Part shown: piece by piece, positions 17,225-25,297 of the stretch
How the letters are laid out: each line of letters begins with the position of its first letter
Position numbering within the stretch: the first letter of the stretch is position 1
The notes under the pieces: generated by a model
What the model was told of the DNA's origin: nothing
Database searches by the model: none
What the model saw: the letters and a program-made list of their open reading frames with translations, nothing else
Made by a program: the position numbers and the translations under genes
Origin: Candidatus Heimdallarchaeota archaeon
GTDB lineage: Archaea > Asgardarchaeota > Heimdallarchaeia > Hodarchaeales > Hodarchaeaceae
Length of the DNA stretch: 51,822 bases
Assembly: GCA_019057635.1 (NCBI GenBank)
Contig: DXJL01000149.1
Span: 1 to 51,822 of the forward strand
Direction: 5' to 3'

Positions 17225-18850
17225 TTAAATGCTTTGTTTAAAAGTATCTATTATATGTCTTTGTGATTTAGAGAGATTATAATGGTCAAGAATAAACGCA
17301 TCCATTTGAGTTATTTCCTCATTTCCCAAACATATTTCTCTCTCTATCTTCATTTCTGCTATTTCTTGTTCCTCTAATGCAGAAAATGGTAATTTAATGG
17401 GAAGTTGCTTCAAATAGCTGATAGGTATTTTTGGAAATATTTTCTTTACTGTTTGAAACTTATGGTTAAGATAAAAAGTTAATAACGAAGAGTTTAGTAT
17501 GATTTCTAGATGTTTTAAATTGAAATGAGACCATTGTGGCTTGAAGGTAATTATGTACACATCGCACACACAAAATAGCATGGTTGGATCATAAACTGAT
17601 ATAAGTTCACGACCAATTCTTCGGAGGAGCAATTTTGGTTTCATATACATTGATTTGTCTTTGAAAATTGATTTTCTGTTCGAATCGAATTCAATATATC
17701 GCCTATCTCCTTTTATGGAAAATTTACTGATATTTCTCCCAGCTATCACTGGTACAGACTCCTGTGTAGAAGGTGTTTCGTTAGTGAAGGTTGACTTAAA
17801 TCCTAACTCGATTCCACGCGTAATAGATGCGATATCCTTTAGGAAAAGCGCTCCTGTTTCCATAATCTCAAGAATTTCAGTGATCTCTGTAGCCAGATCA
17901 GGTAAAATGTACCTGAACTTCTGATCCATAATCATTCTTTGGTCATTCATTTTAATCTGAGAGAATCCACCTTCAACTGAATACTTACTGAATTCAATGA
18001 TGTGGGAAAGACCCTTCTCGGCATCAGTTTTCTTATATCCCATTACAATGCATGTTTCAACAGATACTGAAGGAAATACATTGTCATCCAACATGATGAT
18101 TTTATTGATGTTGAGCTGATTGAGTAATAAATCCCTGAATGCTTGATATCGAAAGTTTGTAGTAAAGTTATTCGGAATAAGGAAGATTAACGCTCCTCCT
18201 TCTCGTAATAGATGTATTGACCGTTCAACAAATAGAAGATAACTTTCTATTTCGGGATCAACACCTTCAAAAATTCTTCTATAGATATTTTTCTCTTCAG
18301 AAGTAAATGAAATCCCAAAGGGGGGATTTCCTATACAAATATCATATCCCTCTTTAGTGTTAGGTGCGGACCATTCATAAAACCAATGAAACGCATTTTT
18401 AACTAAATTTATGTCTGGTTGATTAATGTTAAGATCATCGAAGAAATAACGAGTTAATTTTTCTTCTGTATAATAATTCTTCATGGTTTTAGGAGGTTTA
18501 ATATACCCAATTAACGCATTTCCAGTTTTAAACGAAATTTCAATATCCTTACTTGTCGCTAATTTCCTTTTTTTTGACTCACATAAATTAATAGATTCAT
18601 TATTTATATCTAAACCATGCAAAATTAGTTTAAAATTTATTAGATCACTTTCTCTGATGTTGTTCTTTTGTTTCAAAATTTCAAATAAAAATCTACCATC
18701 TCCAACTGAATTATCAAGGATGCTGATACTTCCAGAACCAAGTGGTTGGTTCAGAATGTCGTTAATAAAATCGAGAGAGAGATTGACCATTAATTTTACA
18801 ATTTTTTCTGGTGTTGGGATCGCTCCTAGTGGTTCTTTTCCTTTTTTCAC
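17225..18850 (-). CDS. N6-adenine DNA methyltransferase, TaqI/Eco57I-like (MTase B)
   Basis: A 541-residue class I SAM methyltransferase of the gamma N6-adenine type. Motif X is TPEKIVKLMV (13-22). The SAM-binding motif I reads LDNSVGDGRFL (D46 to G52), where most relatives have D-P-S-x-G-x-G. The catalytic motif IV is NPPF (175-178) in YDICIGNPPFGISF. A C-terminal target-recognition-like region contains GRNISKF, KLLLRRIG and the family phrase SSLLTFYLNHKFQTVKKIFPKIP. No endonuclease domain is present. It is the last gene of a minus-strand run, 5 bases after MTase A. The AT-rich, Ile/Asn/Lys-rich composition is higher than in metabolic genes nearby. The methylated site is unknown. Confidence 0.85.
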   Translation of the reverse strand: MKKGKEPLGAIPTPEKIVKLMVNLSLDFINDILNQPLGSGSISILDNSVGDGRFLFEILKQKNNIRESDLINFKLILHGLDINNESINLCESKKRKLATSKDIEISFKTGNALIGYIKPPKTMKNYYTEEKLTRYFFDDLNINQPDINLVKNAFHWFYEWSAPNTKEGYDICIGNPPFGISFTSEEKNIYRRIFEGVDPEIESYLLFVERSIHLLREGGALIFLIPNNFTTNFRYQAFRDLLLNQLNINKIIMLDDNVFPSVSVETCIVMGYKKTDAEKGLSHIIEFSKYSVEGGFSQIKMNDQRMIMDQKFRYILPDLATEITEILEIMETGALFLKDIASITRGIELGFKSTFTNETPSTQESVPVIAGRNISKFSIKGDRRYIEFDSNRKSIFKDKSMYMKPKLLLRRIGRELISVYDPTMLFCVCDVYIITFKPQWSHFNLKHLEIILNSSLLTFYLNHKFQTVKKIFPKIPISYLKQLPIKLPFSALEEQEIAEMKIEREICLGNEEITQMDAFILDHYNLSKSQRHIIDTFKQSI

Positions 18851-18855
18851 CTTCC

Positions 18856-20598
18856 TTATTCCCCCTGCAAAATTATCTGTTTTTCATTTTGAGATAATTC
18901 ATAAAAATTGAAAACAATTTCGTCAATAATGGACCTAACATAATACATCTTTGAATATTTACCATTTATCTCTTCGACGTAAGATTTATTGACTTTAATT
19001 CCTATTTTTTTTTCTAGCCATGGTAAGTCGTCTACATTTCTTGTTCGAAAAAACCTATCGAGCTGCTTTATTAACTTAAAGAGATTCCTTGTATGATTTT
19101 TTTGATTAAAGATTGACTGATTAACCATATTATCTAGTAGTTGTCTTAGCTCTTTCCCTTCCATAAGATACAATTTGAAGATTTCTCCAATCACGAAGAA
19201 TTGGTCTATGTTTGATTCCTGTTTTACAGTAGAACAAATATCAGAGAGCTGACCTATTTCTATCATATTCTTAATTTTGCTACGGAAGTCAGAATTCGAC
19301 TCACCATTCAAACGAGGAATTATCAATTTATTTAAATATGGTTTATCTAAATCTTTACTTGTTACAAATCGTTTAGTATATATTGCATGTTGTAACCACC
19401 AAGTTATAAACTTAGATTGAAGTAAAGCACCATATGCATGAATATAATTGGACGAGGAATAAGGAGGAATTATATTAATAACAGTTTCATGAGTAAGGTG
19501 GACACCAGAGGAATCAACCCAAATTGGAAGATCTAATTGGAATTTTGGTTTGGTTTTATAAGCAATTATGCGTTGTCCAATGATTTTAGGTTGCCTTAAT
19601 CTTTTAAACTTAATTTCAGGAACATTTTCAGTGACATAATTACGTTCTGGTAATAAAAACCCGTGTGTAAGCGAAACTTTTTCTATTAATGGAGTAGATA
19701 CGTCTTTTACACGAAATTGACTACTTAAACCACGAAAAGCAGTCCATTCAATTCTTCTGTGATCTTTCAGAAGCTTTTCCATTAGTTTCTGCTCTGAGGG
19801 AGTTACACCCACTAAAAAATTATCGAAACGAATCGCATTTTGAGTCTTAATCTTGGAGACGAAAACTAATTTCTCTTTCTCAGAATCCCATATCCCAGTT
19901 TGGAATTCTAAAGATGGAGAGATTTTTTGTAGTGTAAGGGCGACTTGCTCTTGCAATTGACCAGAAAATTGATTTGCTAAATCATATACTTCTAAAAGAC
20001 GAACCTGAGTTAGACATAGTTGTCGAAACATTTTCCATTTATTAGAGTAAATAAAAGGTTTAGGTAAAATAAAAGAAAGGATACCCCTGTCTTTTAAGAG
20101 GTTAATTGACTTCAGTACGAAATATAGAGCAGATTCTGACGGAATATTCTCCTGGGTTTCTTTGGGACGCAGCTTTCTTATTTTATCCCACTCTTGTGGA
20201 GAATATTTTGCATGGTGAGGAGGATTAGATATGATTAAATCGTATTTTCTTCCATTATTCTCTGTATCAAATTCAGTCAGAAAATTTTTGAGATGAAAAA
20301 CAACAGTACATGTATCATCATTTACAGAGTTAATCACTAATGATTTAGCTTTTGAGAGCGCAGAAGGGTCAATATCTAAAGCATCGATATTGATAGAACT
20401 AAATCTATTCTTTAATATCTGAATAAGTGTTTTGCAAAAAATTCCTTCTCCAGCTGATGGATCTAACACTAAGAGAGTATCATTATCTCTTGGTTCATCA
20501 AGATAATAGATAATGTTTCCAATTATTGCCTGTACAATGTTTTCAGGTGTAAAATATTGCCCTTTTTCACTCTGAGTACTTGACAAGCTGAGTCCCAA
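18856..20598 (-). CDS. N6-adenine DNA methyltransferase-like protein with NPPH motif (MTase A)
   Basis: A 580-residue TaqI-like methyltransferase. Motif X is GQYFTPENIVQAI (13-25), motif I is LDPSAGEGIF (D46 to G52), the acidic loop is DALDIDPSAL, and motif IV is SNPPHH with NPPH at 125-128. The usual aromatic fourth residue (Y, F or W), which stacks on the flipped adenine, is His here, so activity could be altered or lost. The C-terminal half holds TRD-like phrases (KPYLNKLIIPRLNG, SKFITWWLQHAIYTKRFV). The gap of 15 bases to the upstream CCA-kinase gene and 5 bases to MTase B indicate one operon. Two non-identical methyltransferases side by side could modify the two strands of an asymmetric site. 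Confidence 0.8.
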   Translation of the reverse strand: MGLSLSSTQSEKGQYFTPENIVQAIIGNIIYYLDEPRDNDTLLVLDPSAGEGIFCKTLIQILKNRFSSINIDALDIDPSALSKAKSLVINSVNDDTCTVVFHLKNFLTEFDTENNGRKYDLIISNPPHHAKYSPQEWDKIRKLRPKETQENIPSESALYFVLKSINLLKDRGILSFILPKPFIYSNKWKMFRQLCLTQVRLLEVYDLANQFSGQLQEQVALTLQKISPSLEFQTGIWDSEKEKLVFVSKIKTQNAIRFDNFLVGVTPSEQKLMEKLLKDHRRIEWTAFRGLSSQFRVKDVSTPLIEKVSLTHGFLLPERNYVTENVPEIKFKRLRQPKIIGQRIIAYKTKPKFQLDLPIWVDSSGVHLTHETVINIIPPYSSSNYIHAYGALLQSKFITWWLQHAIYTKRFVTSKDLDKPYLNKLIIPRLNGESNSDFRSKIKNMIEIGQLSDICSTVKQESNIDQFFVIGEIFKLYLMEGKELRQLLDNMVNQSIFNQKNHTRNLFKLIKQLDRFFRTRNVDDLPWLEKKIGIKVNKSYVEEINGKYSKMYYVRSIIDEIVFNFYELSQNEKQIILQGE

Positions 20599-20613
20599 AA
20601 ATCGTATTTTTCG

Positions 20614-22578
20614 CTAGGAGCTGAGATTTAACATAGCTTTAATTTTCTTCGCAGTGAAAGTCTTACCAGTAAGTACATTGCCACTCATTATAATAAGACG
20701 ATGTTTGTTTTTCCTTATTCTTAATAGTAAATCCTTCAGTATCTCATCGTAATCGTCTGATCTCGTGGATAACTCAACCACTTGACTACTACTAGGAACA
20801 CGAAGGGAATTCATATATGAATCTATTAAACTTTCATAACGGTTATAAATTATGATATCTGCATCACTTTTAGTAAGAGATTGCTCTTCTTGACTCCTAG
20901 CATCGAAATTCAATTTGAGATCAATTTTTGATGTACTAGTATGTAGGAATATTGGATTAAAAGCTCTAAATTTCTTAATTAATGTCTCCCTATGAGTTGG
21001 ATGTGATGGAGAGTTAAGATTAGTTCCGTCAAAAATCACAATATTGGATTTATTACGACGAAGAAGGCAAGATACCAGCCATATTGCGAGAAGATATGTA
21101 TGAGCACTTTCCCATGAAGAATAATCATGTAGATTTTCACGGTATAACTTTCGAACATGATCGGTTGAAATGATAGTAACCCTCGGACTTTTAGATGAGG
21201 TGCATAGGCTTAAAACTTTTTTAATATTGTCGAGAATTGTATATAGCTCTTTTTTAGAATTGAATGACGGTTTCACTTCCACTTGTTCTCGTAACAAATC
21301 CAAACAGATACCTATAAATTCACGTTGAGCAGATTTTGTTTTGTTAATATTTAAATGGGTAACGACCTCAGTTCCATCAATTTTTACATCCTTGAGATAA
21401 GTTGGTCTTTGGGATTCACTCCTTCTTCTTATATCAGCAAACAATGCATCATTAGGGAGGGGTTTGTTTCCAAGAATTTTCCCCTTAGCATGGTGAAATA
21501 GTAAGAAATCTTCAAGGAATTTAGGGGCAATGCCATAGAGTAACCGCCTTATCAAATAATTCTTGTATTCCTCCTTATTATCATCGAGAGAATATGGTAA
21601 AGGGATTTTATGAATTGATATTAGATGTATTATCTCATCTATGCGCTTGTTTGGAAATTTAAGCCTTTTGAGAATACGAGTTAAGAAATTTTTATTTAGA
21701 TCTGGAAGGAGGAAGGATGAATTAGAAGGGATGGCAGATAACTGATGAAAAAGAACAGAATATCGGAGATTTATTGATGATTCATTAGTTAAATCATCTA
21801 AAATACGCAAAGTAATCTCAAAACGAGATAAATTTATTGAAGGTAGAATATTCTGCATTAATTCATCTTTATATTCAGGTATTAGATGTTTCAGAAGATT
21901 GGTGGAATTTAGAGATCGAATTGCTTGCAGCCAATATAGCCCACCCATTAATTTATGAAATTCGGTTTCAATTCGCTCTTTTGAAATTTGGTCAAAGATG
22001 TGTAAATGCCTTGGTACCGCAGCAAGGGATGATTCCTCAACAGAATATCCTAATTGAGAAACAAATCTGAATATTCTGATTAATCTGAGGCCATCTTCCT
22101 CTAAACGAGCATCAGGGTCACCAACCAAACGTAAAATTTTATTAACAATATCAGAACGTCCATTGTAAGGATCTGTAAAAAATTCAGTAATGGGATCATA
22201 TGCAATTGCATTAATTGTGAGATCACGTCGAGCAAGATCCTCTTCAATATCAGTTACAAATTGAACATGGGATGGACGACGACCATCTTCATATTCCCCT
22301 TCGACCCGAAAAGTTGTAATCTCTATTGAAAGATTTTTAAATAGAAGAGTAACCGTTCCGTGTTGTATACCAGTTGGAATTACCTTGAATTTCTTAAATA
22401 ACTCCATAACTTCAGATGGAGATGCGTCTGTTGCAATATCCCAGTCATTTGGTTGAATTTCACCTCTTAGAAGATCACGAATTGACCCGCCAACAATAAA
22501 TGCCTTATATCCTACGGAAGAAAATTTGTGACAAACCTCAAGAATTTCTGCAGGAAAGTGACTTGCGGTGAATTCCAT
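20614..22578 (-). CDS. Class II CCA-adding enzyme fused to a circularly permuted PNK-like kinase
   Basis: A 654-residue two-part protein. Residues 1 to about 445 are a bacterial-type class II CCA-adding/poly(A) polymerase-like nucleotidyltransferase: GGSIRDLL (30-37), catalytic D45 and D47 in NDWDIAT, RRDLTINA (117-124), EDGLR (161-165), and a body/tail ending VKIDGTEVVTHLNINK to LLREQVEVKPSFNSKKEL. Residues about 465-654 carry the parts of a polynucleotide-kinase-like P-loop kinase in changed order: TIISTDHVRKLYRE (468-481), IVIFDGTNLN (513-522) with HRETLIKKF, PIFLHTSTS (542-550), then LIIMSGNVLTGKTFTAKKIK with the P-loop GNVLTGKT (633-640) only 14 residues from the end. All pieces are present, so permutation is more likely than truncation. 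It heads the operon with two methyltransferases. A role in tRNA or RNA 3'/5' end repair is inference. Confidence 0.8.
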   Translation of the reverse strand: MEFTASHFPAEILEVCHKFSSVGYKAFIVGGSIRDLLRGEIQPNDWDIATDASPSEVMELFKKFKVIPTGIQHGTVTLLFKNLSIEITTFRVEGEYEDGRRPSHVQFVTDIEEDLARRDLTINAIAYDPITEFFTDPYNGRSDIVNKILRLVGDPDARLEEDGLRLIRIFRFVSQLGYSVEESSLAAVPRHLHIFDQISKERIETEFHKLMGGLYWLQAIRSLNSTNLLKHLIPEYKDELMQNILPSINLSRFEITLRILDDLTNESSINLRYSVLFHQLSAIPSNSSFLLPDLNKNFLTRILKRLKFPNKRIDEIIHLISIHKIPLPYSLDDNKEEYKNYLIRRLLYGIAPKFLEDFLLFHHAKGKILGNKPLPNDALFADIRRRSESQRPTYLKDVKIDGTEVVTHLNINKTKSAQREFIGICLDLLREQVEVKPSFNSKKELYTILDNIKKVLSLCTSSKSPRVTIISTDHVRKLYRENLHDYSSWESAHTYLLAIWLVSCLLRRNKSNIVIFDGTNLNSPSHPTHRETLIKKFRAFNPIFLHTSTSKIDLKLNFDARSQEEQSLTKSDADIIIYNRYESLIDSYMNSLRVPSSSQVVELSTRSDDYDEILKDLLLRIRKNKHRLIIMSGNVLTGKTFTAKKIKAMLNLSS

Positions 22579-22675
22579 GGTCAGACCTCATCTGTATACT
22601 TTCGAATTGAGGAAAAGGACTATTAAAAGCTATAATATCTTCCATTGATTAACTAAACTTTCTGAGAGATGATAT

Positions 22676-25297
22676 TTGCAACAGCTATCTCAAAACCTAA
22701 AAGAGCTTTATGTATTACTTCTTCAAGAAGGACGCTTCCTAAATTGGTCGGATGCAGTCACCTTTGAGGTAGCTTTAAATTCACTTATTAAATTCCTCTC
22801 CTTATTTTATTACCAACCATGGAACAAAATCGTAGAAGAGCCATTTTCTTCATTGAAAAAGACAGAAAAAAGGATGATTTTTCTCGAAAAATTTTTTCAT
22901 TCATTTGAGTATTCTGCAGGTGGAAATGAAAAGCAGGCTGTAGAGAAATCAATATTTTATCTATCAGCTCCTACACCGAAAGAAAAACAACTACTAAAAA
23001 GTATTCCAGGTGAAGATTGGAATCAAGTGATTAATCTTCTAGAGACTTATACATTCAACTCTGTGGAAAAATTCCAAGAGTCTACTAACCAAGAGGGTGA
23101 AATAACCCCTGAATTTCTTTCATTCTTTGCAGAAATTGTCATAAATGAATTTGAAAAAGATTTTTCAGTTTCACCTAAAGTATCAAGTCGAAAAACAAAA
23201 GGAGTATACTATTCACCTTGGAAAATCATCAGAGAATTGGCCGATAATCTCATATCTGATGACAGAACTCAGGTAACGGTTTTAGACCCTAGTTGTGGGA
23301 CTGGTTCATTTTTACTTTATACGACAGAAAGAATTTATCAAAATCAACAGAAATACGAAGGCAATTATGAAGATAATCCATCAAACATCGTCAAAAACTT
23401 CATTTACGGTGTAGATAAATCAAGTTCGGGTATATTAGTTACAAAATTAAGATTACTTCTCTGGATTTTAGGTAAAGATCCCGAATCAAATTTAGATACT
23501 GAAACACATATTTTTTCAAATATTCGAGAGGGAAACTCACTTTTTGGCTTTATTAATGAAAAATTTAATCCGACTATTGATTTAATTAATTATTTATCCC
23601 AGAATATTCAGAAAATAGGGGTAAAGAGTTCCAAACTTGTTGAAATGGAAAAGTATCTGAATAAAGATTGGGTTATTTGCTGTGACATACTCAAATCTGT
23701 TTTAACAGAGAGAGATTTCGTAATTAGAGCAAATATCGATTCTTTAATGGAACAGGTAAATAAAGATCTTTCAAAGATATTTAATAATGCATACGTTCAA
23801 TTTTTATCAACCTTAACGAACCAAACTATGAATTTGAAGTCCCTATATAATACAAAAGTAACCCAACTTGAATTTTTTCATTGGGGATTGATGTTTCCCG
23901 AGATTCTGAGACAAGGTGGATTTGATATTTGCTTGGGTAATCCTCCATATGGTCGTTCAATCCTTTCAGTGACTGAGAAAAATATCTTGAAGGCGTCCTA
24001 CAGTTCATGTAAGGGCTCTAACGCGAAAAAAATTAGTTTAAATGCAGCTGGGGCATTTATTGAACGTTCAATAAAACTCCTTAAACCAGAAGGTCGTTTG
24101 GCATTTATTCTCCCATTTTCAATCCTTAGGGTTGAAGAATTTGAAAGAATTCGTGATTATATTCTAGAAAAAACCGTGATAGACGAAATTCACGATGAAT
24201 CTGCAGCATTTCAAACTGTAACACTAGAGATGTGTTCATTAATCTTAACCAAACAACAAAAAAACGACTATCCGATTTTTATTAAACCTAGAAAGGGTTT
24301 AAAACTAGTATCACAGGTAAATAAATCGGTTTTTATGAACTACAAACGGTTTATGATATATTATGACACAAATTGGCAGATAATTACTCGAAATGGGGAA
24401 TTTTCTCAAATAATGGGAGATTATGGAGTAGATCATAGGATTGTTAAGAAAGATTTGAAACGGAATTACACTCCTTCCATGGAATATGTAGTTCCTTTTC
24501 TTCATTCAGGAAGATGTGTCACTCGTTATGCACTGAATCCTAATTATTTTCATTGGTCAAAATCGAATCATAAGAATCCTAGATTTATCGACTATCTTGA
24601 GAAACCTAAACTTGTTTGTACTGCAATTGGTAACGAGTTTCGGGTAGCTTACAAACCTAGGGGAATCGTACCAGGAACAAATGTCTCAATAATGGAAATT
24701 TCAAACCCTCAACATGATTTCTTTCCTCTAATGATTATACTCAATTCTTCTCTAATTAATTATTTATTAAAACGATATATATTGAATTATTCTCATCTAA
24801 CGGTCTATCTACACAAATATTATACACAATTAATACCAATAAAATATCCATGGTCTTATGAAAAGGAATGGAGAATAATTGGGACCTATATATCCTTGTT
24901 GAATCAGATACAACAATTGAACCTTGGACTCTCCTACCAGAAAGAATTGAAATTTTTGGGAGAAATTACAGAGCACATGGTTTACCATTTATATCTTCCA
25001 GAAATTTATACAGATTCAAAATTGACGTTAACATCCATACTTCAGGATTCCCTTCTTGAAATCCAATTTGAGGATTGTATTGAGGCACTCTTATCCCCAA
25101 CTAGCGATATTGAGGAGATTATAAAGGAAAAAAATTCTGATGTAATGATAGCTGAAGCAAGAATACTGGCTGTCATTAGTACATTGAAAACTGAATCAAT
25201 TCTTAATATCCTCTCTCAATCCAAGCAACTAAGAGAAAAATCGGGAATAACGAAAAAAATACTCCTTGATACAACACCAAAGATGATTCGAACATAA
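22676..25297 (+). CDS. Large N6-adenine DNA methyltransferase, Eco57I/PglX-like (MTase C)
   Basis: An 873-residue methyltransferase starting at TTG (22676); no in-frame ATG lies near, and the first internal Met is about 60 residues in. The N-terminal 165 residues are of unknown fold. Then come motif X GVYYSPWKIIREL (about 182), motif I LDPSCGTGSFLL (D204 to G210), an acidic GVDKSSSGILV loop and motif IV FDICLGNPPYGRS (NPPY 422-425). A TRD region includes LHSGRCVTRY, KLVCTAIGNEFRVAYKPRG, ILNSSLINYLL and HLTVYLHKYYTQLIPIKYP. I see no PD-(D/E)xK or HNH nuclease, so it is not a standard type IIG enzyme. It is divergent from the CCA-kinase gene across 97 bases and probably belongs to the same module. 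Confidence 0.85.
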   Translation: MQQLSQNLKELYVLLLQEGRFLNWSDAVTFEVALNSLIKFLSLFYYQPWNKIVEEPFSSLKKTEKRMIFLEKFFHSFEYSAGGNEKQAVEKSIFYLSAPTPKEKQLLKSIPGEDWNQVINLLETYTFNSVEKFQESTNQEGEITPEFLSFFAEIVINEFEKDFSVSPKVSSRKTKGVYYSPWKIIRELADNLISDDRTQVTVLDPSCGTGSFLLYTTERIYQNQQKYEGNYEDNPSNIVKNFIYGVDKSSSGILVTKLRLLLWILGKDPESNLDTETHIFSNIREGNSLFGFINEKFNPTIDLINYLSQNIQKIGVKSSKLVEMEKYLNKDWVICCDILKSVLTERDFVIRANIDSLMEQVNKDLSKIFNNAYVQFLSTLTNQTMNLKSLYNTKVTQLEFFHWGLMFPEILRQGGFDICLGNPPYGRSILSVTEKNILKASYSSCKGSNAKKISLNAAGAFIERSIKLLKPEGRLAFILPFSILRVEEFERIRDYILEKTVIDEIHDESAAFQTVTLEMCSLILTKQQKNDYPIFIKPRKGLKLVSQVNKSVFMNYKRFMIYYDTNWQIITRNGEFSQIMGDYGVDHRIVKKDLKRNYTPSMEYVVPFLHSGRCVTRYALNPNYFHWSKSNHKNPRFIDYLEKPKLVCTAIGNEFRVAYKPRGIVPGTNVSIMEISNPQHDFFPLMIILNSSLINYLLKRYILNYSHLTVYLHKYYTQLIPIKYPWSYEKEWRIIGTYISLLNQIQQLNLGLSYQKELKFLGEITEHMVYHLYLPEIYTDSKLTLTSILQDSLLEIQFEDCIEALLSPTSDIEEIIKEKNSDVMIAEARILAVISTLKTESILNILSQSKQLREKSGITKKILLDTTPKMIRT

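Follow-up and report, generated by a model that had tools for sequence, protein, structure and literature searches.

A putative CCA-adding enzyme joined to a probably permuted DxTN-family kinase in Hodarchaeales

What is an archaeal protein that carries a nucleotidyltransferase of the CCA-adding type in front and, behind it, a kinase whose P-loop comes last, and what might it do? The question is raised by a gene in a window of 51,822 nucleotides (the whole stretch of DNA analysed) from Candidatus Heimdallarchaeota archaeon, an Asgard archaeon of the order Hodarchaeales, in whose 3.19 Mb draft genome the fusion gene lies on contig 125. Hodarchaeales have been proposed as the sister order of eukaryotes (PMC12077186), a placement that has been questioned (PMC12395588).

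Layout and distribution of the fusion gene

The open reading frame runs from a CCA enzyme through β2, β3, β4, lid, β5 and a helix to β1, the P-loop and a last helix before the stop (Table 1), and the gene is the first of an operon with N6-adenine methylases. A sequence-only reading of the locus had proposed a complete class II nucleotidyltransferase with the motifs GGSIRD, DWD, RRDLTINA and EDGLR, then TIISTDHVRKLYRE and IVIFDGTNLN as kinase strands with no P-loop ahead of them, and GNVLTGKT 14 residues before the stop. All four motifs were found, as were both kinase strings (after EDGLR) and the P-loop at the coordinates and distance claimed; moreover, none of the copies (eight full length and one fragment) has a G-x4-GK[ST] ahead of its STDH[VI]RK strand, and hence no homologue with a normal N-terminal P-loop was present among the nine sequences.

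Table 1. Positions of the fusion gene, its parts and the neighbouring methylase genes in the window
Feature	Position	Strand	Basis or remarks
CCA nucleotidyltransferase-permuted kinase fusion gene	20614..22578	-	654 aa + stop, ATG start
Class II nucleotidyltransferase head and RNA-binding neck, residues 1-240	21859..22578	-	GGSIRD, DWD, DGRRP loop, RRDLTINA, EDGLR; Pfam PolyA_pol 2.4e-34, PolyA_pol_RNAbd 7e-10; NCBIfam
CCA-adding enzyme body and tail (helical), residues 241-460	21199..21858	-	PRK13299 reach in L040/L034 homologues; Foldseek alignment
Kinase core without P-loop, residues 461-626: β2, β3 with DxTN, β4, lid, β5, C-terminal helix	20701..21198	-	DSSP on AlphaFold2 models; AAA_33 positions 26-137 in homologues
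STDHVR, residues 471-476, end of β2 with conserved Asp473 and Arg476	21151..21168	-	S, T, D, H, R invariant in 9 sequences; STDxxR also in the genus' conventional kinases
DGTN, residues 517-520, DxTN-type Walker B	21019..21030	-	D, T, N invariant
Lid region, Arg561 to SDAD (571-574)	20857..20898	-	R561 and SDAD invariant; R and SDA common to conventional kinases
Displaced β1, P-loop and helix αA at the C terminus, residues 627-654	20617..20700	-	Model strand 628-633, helix 639-652
P-loop GNVLTGKT, residues 633-640	20659..20682	-	G633, N634, V635, L636, G638, K639 invariant
MTase-B, N6-adenine methylase-like, next in operon after a 15 nt gap	18856..20598	-	Pfam Eco57I 1e-12, N6_Mtase 4e-12; neighbour in all relatives inspected
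MTase-C, Eco57I/TaqI_C type methylase	17225..18850	-	TaqI_C 2.6e-23, Eco57I 3e-20
MTase-A, Eco57I/TaqI_C type methylase, divergent	22676..25297	+	Eco57I 4.5e-22; neighbour in seven relatives

Eight full-length copies from eight genomes share this layout, seven of them relatives 45-73% identical to the window copy, as does a ninth copy that is a fragment; two copies sit on single-contig assemblies (CP070760 and CP070695). With the layout recurring in this way, the fusion is not a chance or assembly artefact. A scan of 84,980 species genomes, which needs short peptide patterns, may overlook distant relatives and perhaps left out the window's own record, returned eight fusion loci, all Hodarchaeales-like, and strong matches to the fusion were present in 8 of 228 Asgard genomes. 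Four genus members, G002, G004, G005 and G007, showed no fused gene; all four are incomplete genomes. Genome G010 carries two different copies, L035 and L036, the latter a contig-end fragment close to L038 that may be a paralogue or come from a contaminating strain.

Element order and family of the kinase

β1 and the P-loop come last in every copy, against the rule of the DxTN family that the P-loop strand comes first, and the stop codon invariably falls 13-18 residues past the P-loop lysine. STDH[VI]RK, D[GA]TN, R561, SDAD and SGNVL[ST]GK are kept across the nine-sequence alignment, with K639, D473, R476, D517, T519, N520 and R561 invariant; the Walker A sequence GNVL[ST]GK[TS] of all nine copies agrees with GxxxxGK[ST], and the DxTN Walker B takes the form D[GA]TN. 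Against the three nearest relatives dN/dS is 0.10-0.15 for the kinase and 0.17-0.24 for the head, rough values given that synonymous sites are near saturation. Judged by these ratios the kinase part is evolving under purifying selection, and it can be expected with good confidence to be active as a kinase or ATPase. A frameshifted second kinase after the stop was considered and rejected, the downstream DNA being the next gene, equally placed in the relatives.

In native order the kinase stays below the AAA_33 cut-off and matches only part of that profile, at most positions 26-137 of 143. When the last ~28-33 residues are put first, the match starts at profile position 1-3 and reaches up to 137 of 143; this rotated order passes the AAA_33 cut-off in three of the five copies tested and the KTI12 cut-off in three. 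When all rotations were scanned with an HMM built from seven conventional kinases (Hodarchaeal/Asgard), the best cuts lay at β1 or at most ~12 residues before it in 9/9 copies, with a gain of ~6-15 bits. Prepending shuffled pieces mostly gave no such rise in score, and prepending the P-loops of unrelated NTPases (ParA/Mrp, an adenylate-kinase-like protein, APS kinase) gave scores that were equal or higher. Because unrelated P-loops do equally well, the rotation test shows that β1, P-loop and αA are lacking at the front and present at the end, and not that this end piece has to be the one that belongs in front.

Structure prediction adds to this picture. In an AlphaFold2 model of residues 419-654 (pLDDT 80.3, pTM 0.82), and likewise in one of the full-length protein, DSSP assigns five strands (467-471, 513-517, 542-547, 600-603 and 628-633), with a helix following the P-loop; as modelled these would correspond to the elements of a P-loop kinase core, rotated in their order. 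The strand assignment of β1 (628-633) implies a bridge partner for it within the model. Foldseek matched the head to CCA-adding enzymes (see below) but found no kinase, only noise, with the native-order kinase model; this blank is to be expected from a program that aligns in sequence order, and it is not positive evidence either. Taken with the conserved order, alignment and model suggest that the kinase is very probably circularly permuted. A core that lost its P-loop, followed by an unrelated C-terminal P-loop remnant, would be consistent with the foreign P-loops that complete the profile equally well, but is very unlikely: the two pieces are kept together and invariant over deep divergence at a dN/dS of ~0.1, the model is confident over both and assigns β1 as a strand, no remnant of a second kinase was found, and the distance from αA to the stop hardly varies among the copies. 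The simplest origin of the permutation would be a tandem duplication of the kinase, followed by loss of β1, P-loop and αA from the first copy and of everything after αA from the second.

Asp473 and Arg476 would presumably match Asp35 and Arg38 of T4 PNK; conventional AAA_33 kinases have these residues too. Searched against PDB sequences, a combined profile matched PSTK (1.9e-16), a Clostridium kinase domain (5e-10) deposited as 'Metallophosphoesterase' that we take to be that of Pnkp, PFKFB (~1e-8) and T4 PNK (4e-6), although half of this profile is built of conventional kinases, which partly drive the PSTK-led result; profiles of the nine permuted sequences alone, native or rotated, gave weak matches only. 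PSTK, Kti12 and T4 PNK are members of the DxTN kinase family, named for its motif (PMC7363723). PSTK (3adb), Kti12, the Clostridium Pnkp kinase domain (4gp6) and T4 PNK (1ly1) have in common with the fusion Walker A, STDxxR after β2, the DxTN Walker B and a lid arginine, whereas the fusion's kinase is rotated, with β1, P-loop and αA last, and sits behind a CCA enzyme. The genus also has AAA_33-type kinases (L056-L060) that align with ~25-29% identity to the rotated sequence and share GxxxTGK[ST], STDxxR, GT and SDA; in contrast, they are of conventional order, stand alone and have [DE]GTF in place of DGTN. These comparisons support membership in the PNK-containing DxTN family (Kti12/PSTK/T4 PNK), in which the kinase is to be filed as a permuted variant rather than a regular member, and this membership gives nothing firm on the substrate. 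The PNK-like permuted kinase proposed from the sequence alone is thus upheld, as a permuted DxTN-family kinase, by the conserved order, the rotation scores, the AlphaFold2 model and the family profile.

Circular permutation of P-loop domains is already known from RNA-acting GTPases, the circularly permuted TRAFAC proteins RsgA and RbgA, whose break point differs from that of the fusion's kinase. Like the fusion, these join a permuted P-loop NTPase to an RNA-binding domain, but they are GTPases of another P-loop class and act on the ribosome (PMC6912228). In the open-access literature we came across neither a permuted kinase of the PNK/PSTK/Kti12 (DxTN) type nor a fusion of a CCA-adding enzyme with a kinase, though reports of either may exist. 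The fusion offers a natural test of a P-loop domain that is broken between αA and β2 and yet apparently works, and it bears on what permutation serves when the partner is an RNA-binding enzyme.

CCA-adding enzymes in the fusion and in the genus

Pfam matches cover residues 26-150 (PolyA_pol) and 177-238 (RNA-binding domain), and the class II motifs GG..RD, DxD, RRD and EDxxR all lie in the PolyA_pol head. The CCA-enzyme model PRK13299 ends at residues 449-456 in the homologues L040 and L034, at model position 390-394 of 396, and the full-length AlphaFold2 model (pLDDT 82.9) shares ~440 alignment columns with CCA-adding enzymes, with a TM of 0.77 to that of Bacillus stearothermophilus (1miv; Foldseek). 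Between motifs A and B of the head stands a flexible loop, EDGRRPSHV, close to the a-type consensus DGRbAxV; bacterial CC-adding enzymes have no such loop (PMC7014341). Because of the reach of PRK13299, the fold match, the EDGLR motif and the flexible loop, residues 1-460 are likely to be a complete class II CCA- or A-adding enzyme, and on the same sequence features the head can be predicted with fair assurance to add CCA or A. The NCBIfam CCA equivalog NF009814, a single curated model and not a definition of the class, has a cut-off of 290 bits, above the scores of the fusion protein (258.8) and its best homologue (288.6). The class II CCA-adding enzymes of B. stearothermophilus and Planococcus halocryophilus (6ibp) share with the fusion the catalytic motifs, an a-type-like loop DGRRPSxV and the head-neck-body-tail fold; the fusion differs from them in its added C-terminal permuted kinase and its archaeal host, a domain that normally has class I.

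Class I CCA enzymes (PF09249) were found in 187/228 genomes of the phylum versus one of the 12 genomes of the host genus, and class II (PF01743) in 41/228 and in ten of the 12, eight of which have two copies. G004, the only genome of the genus with class I, lacks class II, and the fused gene was not found in it. Class I (COG1746) otherwise serves as an archaeal single-copy marker (PMC9258230). Most of the tRNA genes found in the fusion host genome have no encoded CCA. With class I almost absent and CCA mostly not encoded, residues 1-460 would probably supply much or all of the genus' CCA or terminal-A addition. The genus documents a change within Hodarchaeales from the archaeal way of CCA synthesis to that of the bacterial/eukaryotic type, and its class II copies are two divergent ones. 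Family f4, which belongs to the same taxonomic class, has likewise replaced class I by class II, with no class I found among its listed members; most of family f5 has both.

In the tree built from class II heads, fused copies probably pair as sisters with the short ones of 385-410 aa (82/91), and the stem of the short copy is long (2.08 versus 0.65 changes per column). This long stem, and the missing DGR loop of the short copy, suggest that the fused copy retained the ancestral CCA function. The fusion host genome carries such a second, fast-evolving class II nucleotidyltransferase of ~387 aa on contig 163 (L093:5096-6256), in which the flexible loop is altered to TTYGHPPKI; it may be CC-only or have another role. 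Near it lies an ORF judged by eye to be TnpB/IS605-type transposase-like (L093:2564-3772).

Possible roles of the kinase and its neighbouring genes

Our main reading, to which we give a probability of about 0.5, is a two-headed tRNA-end enzyme, in which a class II CCA head and a permuted DxTN kinase would together heal the ends of the acceptor stem. In the predicted layout the C-terminal helix of the kinase runs directly into β1, and β2, with the putative catalytic Asp473 and Arg476, directly follows the last helix of the CCA enzyme. A tRNA held by the CCA head would, we infer, bring the substrate to an active kinase, which would most likely restore the 5′ phosphate on the acceptor stem while the 3′ CCA is made or repaired, such that both ends could be healed at one site with no ligase required. 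The chances that the kinase substrate is tRNA or RNA at all are roughly balanced, and the 5′-OH of the acceptor stem in particular is less likely than not; no sequence feature of the kinase singles out a 5′-OH RNA substrate. Taken in full, as one enzyme that heals both acceptor-stem ends with its kinase substrate loop mechanically joined to the tRNA-binding tail, and as the first natural circular permutation among DxTN/PNK-type kinases, the proposal is doubtful.

The sequence-only reading had suggested repair of broken tRNA; its CCA head and PNK-family kinase are supported, and the repair itself is weakened by what else the genus encodes. RtcB is present in 11/12 genus genomes, and there is no convincing 5′-phosphate RNA ligase (PF09414) in the genus, with no match in most members, including the fusion host genome, and in others weak matches to ORFs of ~570-650 aa that may be ATP-dependent DNA ligases. 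With RtcB joining 5′-OH ends and no such ligase convincingly present, a 5′-kinase would feed no known ligase. Thus the view that a 5′-OH RNA kinase and a ligase mend tRNAs cut in the anticodon loop, as T4 Pnkp/Rnl1 do, while the CCA head repairs trimmed 3′ ends, is improbable, despite the DxTN/PNK family membership and the co-occurrence of CCA-adding enzymes and PNKs in jumbo-phage tRNA repair (PMC7824862); nor was a 3′-phosphatase domain seen in the fusion protein (Pfam). A PSTK-like seryl-tRNA kinase tethered to the CCA enzyme would suit the combined profile, whose best match of solved structure is PSTK, a match that the conventional kinases in the profile help to pull in. No convincing SepSecS, the enzyme that acts after PSTK on the way to selenocysteine, was found: four genus members gave short weak matches (~residues 95-199 of 389), and the rest, the fusion host among them, gave none; such a role is highly improbable. 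The lack of a convincing PF09414 ligase and SepSecS, together with RtcB, makes end-healing or a tRNA-coupled switch preferable to ligation-type repair or a PSTK role. As such a switch, the kinase module would be a Kti12-like tRNA-dependent ATPase that passes no phosphate to RNA and controls how the head binds, releases or quality-checks tRNA; as in RNA-binding GTPases that are permuted, the rearrangement would set a hinge between the heads beside the substrate loop. The rotated sequence of the fusion protein matches KTI12 best (23.0 bits, cut-off 22), and PSTK is the best solved relative, Kti12 being a PSTK-like, tRNA-stimulated DxTN ATPase (PMC7363723); furthermore, ribosomal RNA is the target of the permuted P-loop GTPases, in which the permutation is believed to relay conformational change (PMC6912228). 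Conversely, the invariant Asp and Arg after β2, the DxTN motif and the lid arginine suit phosphoryl transfer, and AAA_33 outscores KTI12 in 3/5 rotated homologues, so that a switch is possible and somewhat unlikely.

The genes around the fusion bear on a further alternative, in which the kinase acts on a small molecule or on the CCA head itself in a regulatory way, or belongs to a defence-like operon with N6-adenine methylases. Restriction-modification-type methylases do stand with it in a conserved operon at one chromosomal place, and some nucleotidyltransferase toxins are controlled by phosphorylation (PMC11375011). However, the fusion protein has no PADLOC match, and its neighbours gave only partial ones, mostly to generic methyltransferase models; no nuclease was seen in the methylase cluster (17225-25297; L033-L035, L037-L040), which in relatives keeps its position between housekeeping genes, unlike mobile defence islands, and no relatives of the fusion were found in the viral contigs, phage or plasmid collections searched. 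A regulatory or defence role is therefore unlikely. The cluster of N6-adenine methylase-like genes is kept across the same loci, with MTase-A divergent and MTase-B and usually MTase-C in the operon. That the methylase linkage is older than the fusion found no support, the class II genes of family f4 having no adjacent methylases in the three loci read. In 8/9 copies motif IV of MTase-B reads NPPH instead of NPPY/F, and its target or activity may be unusual.
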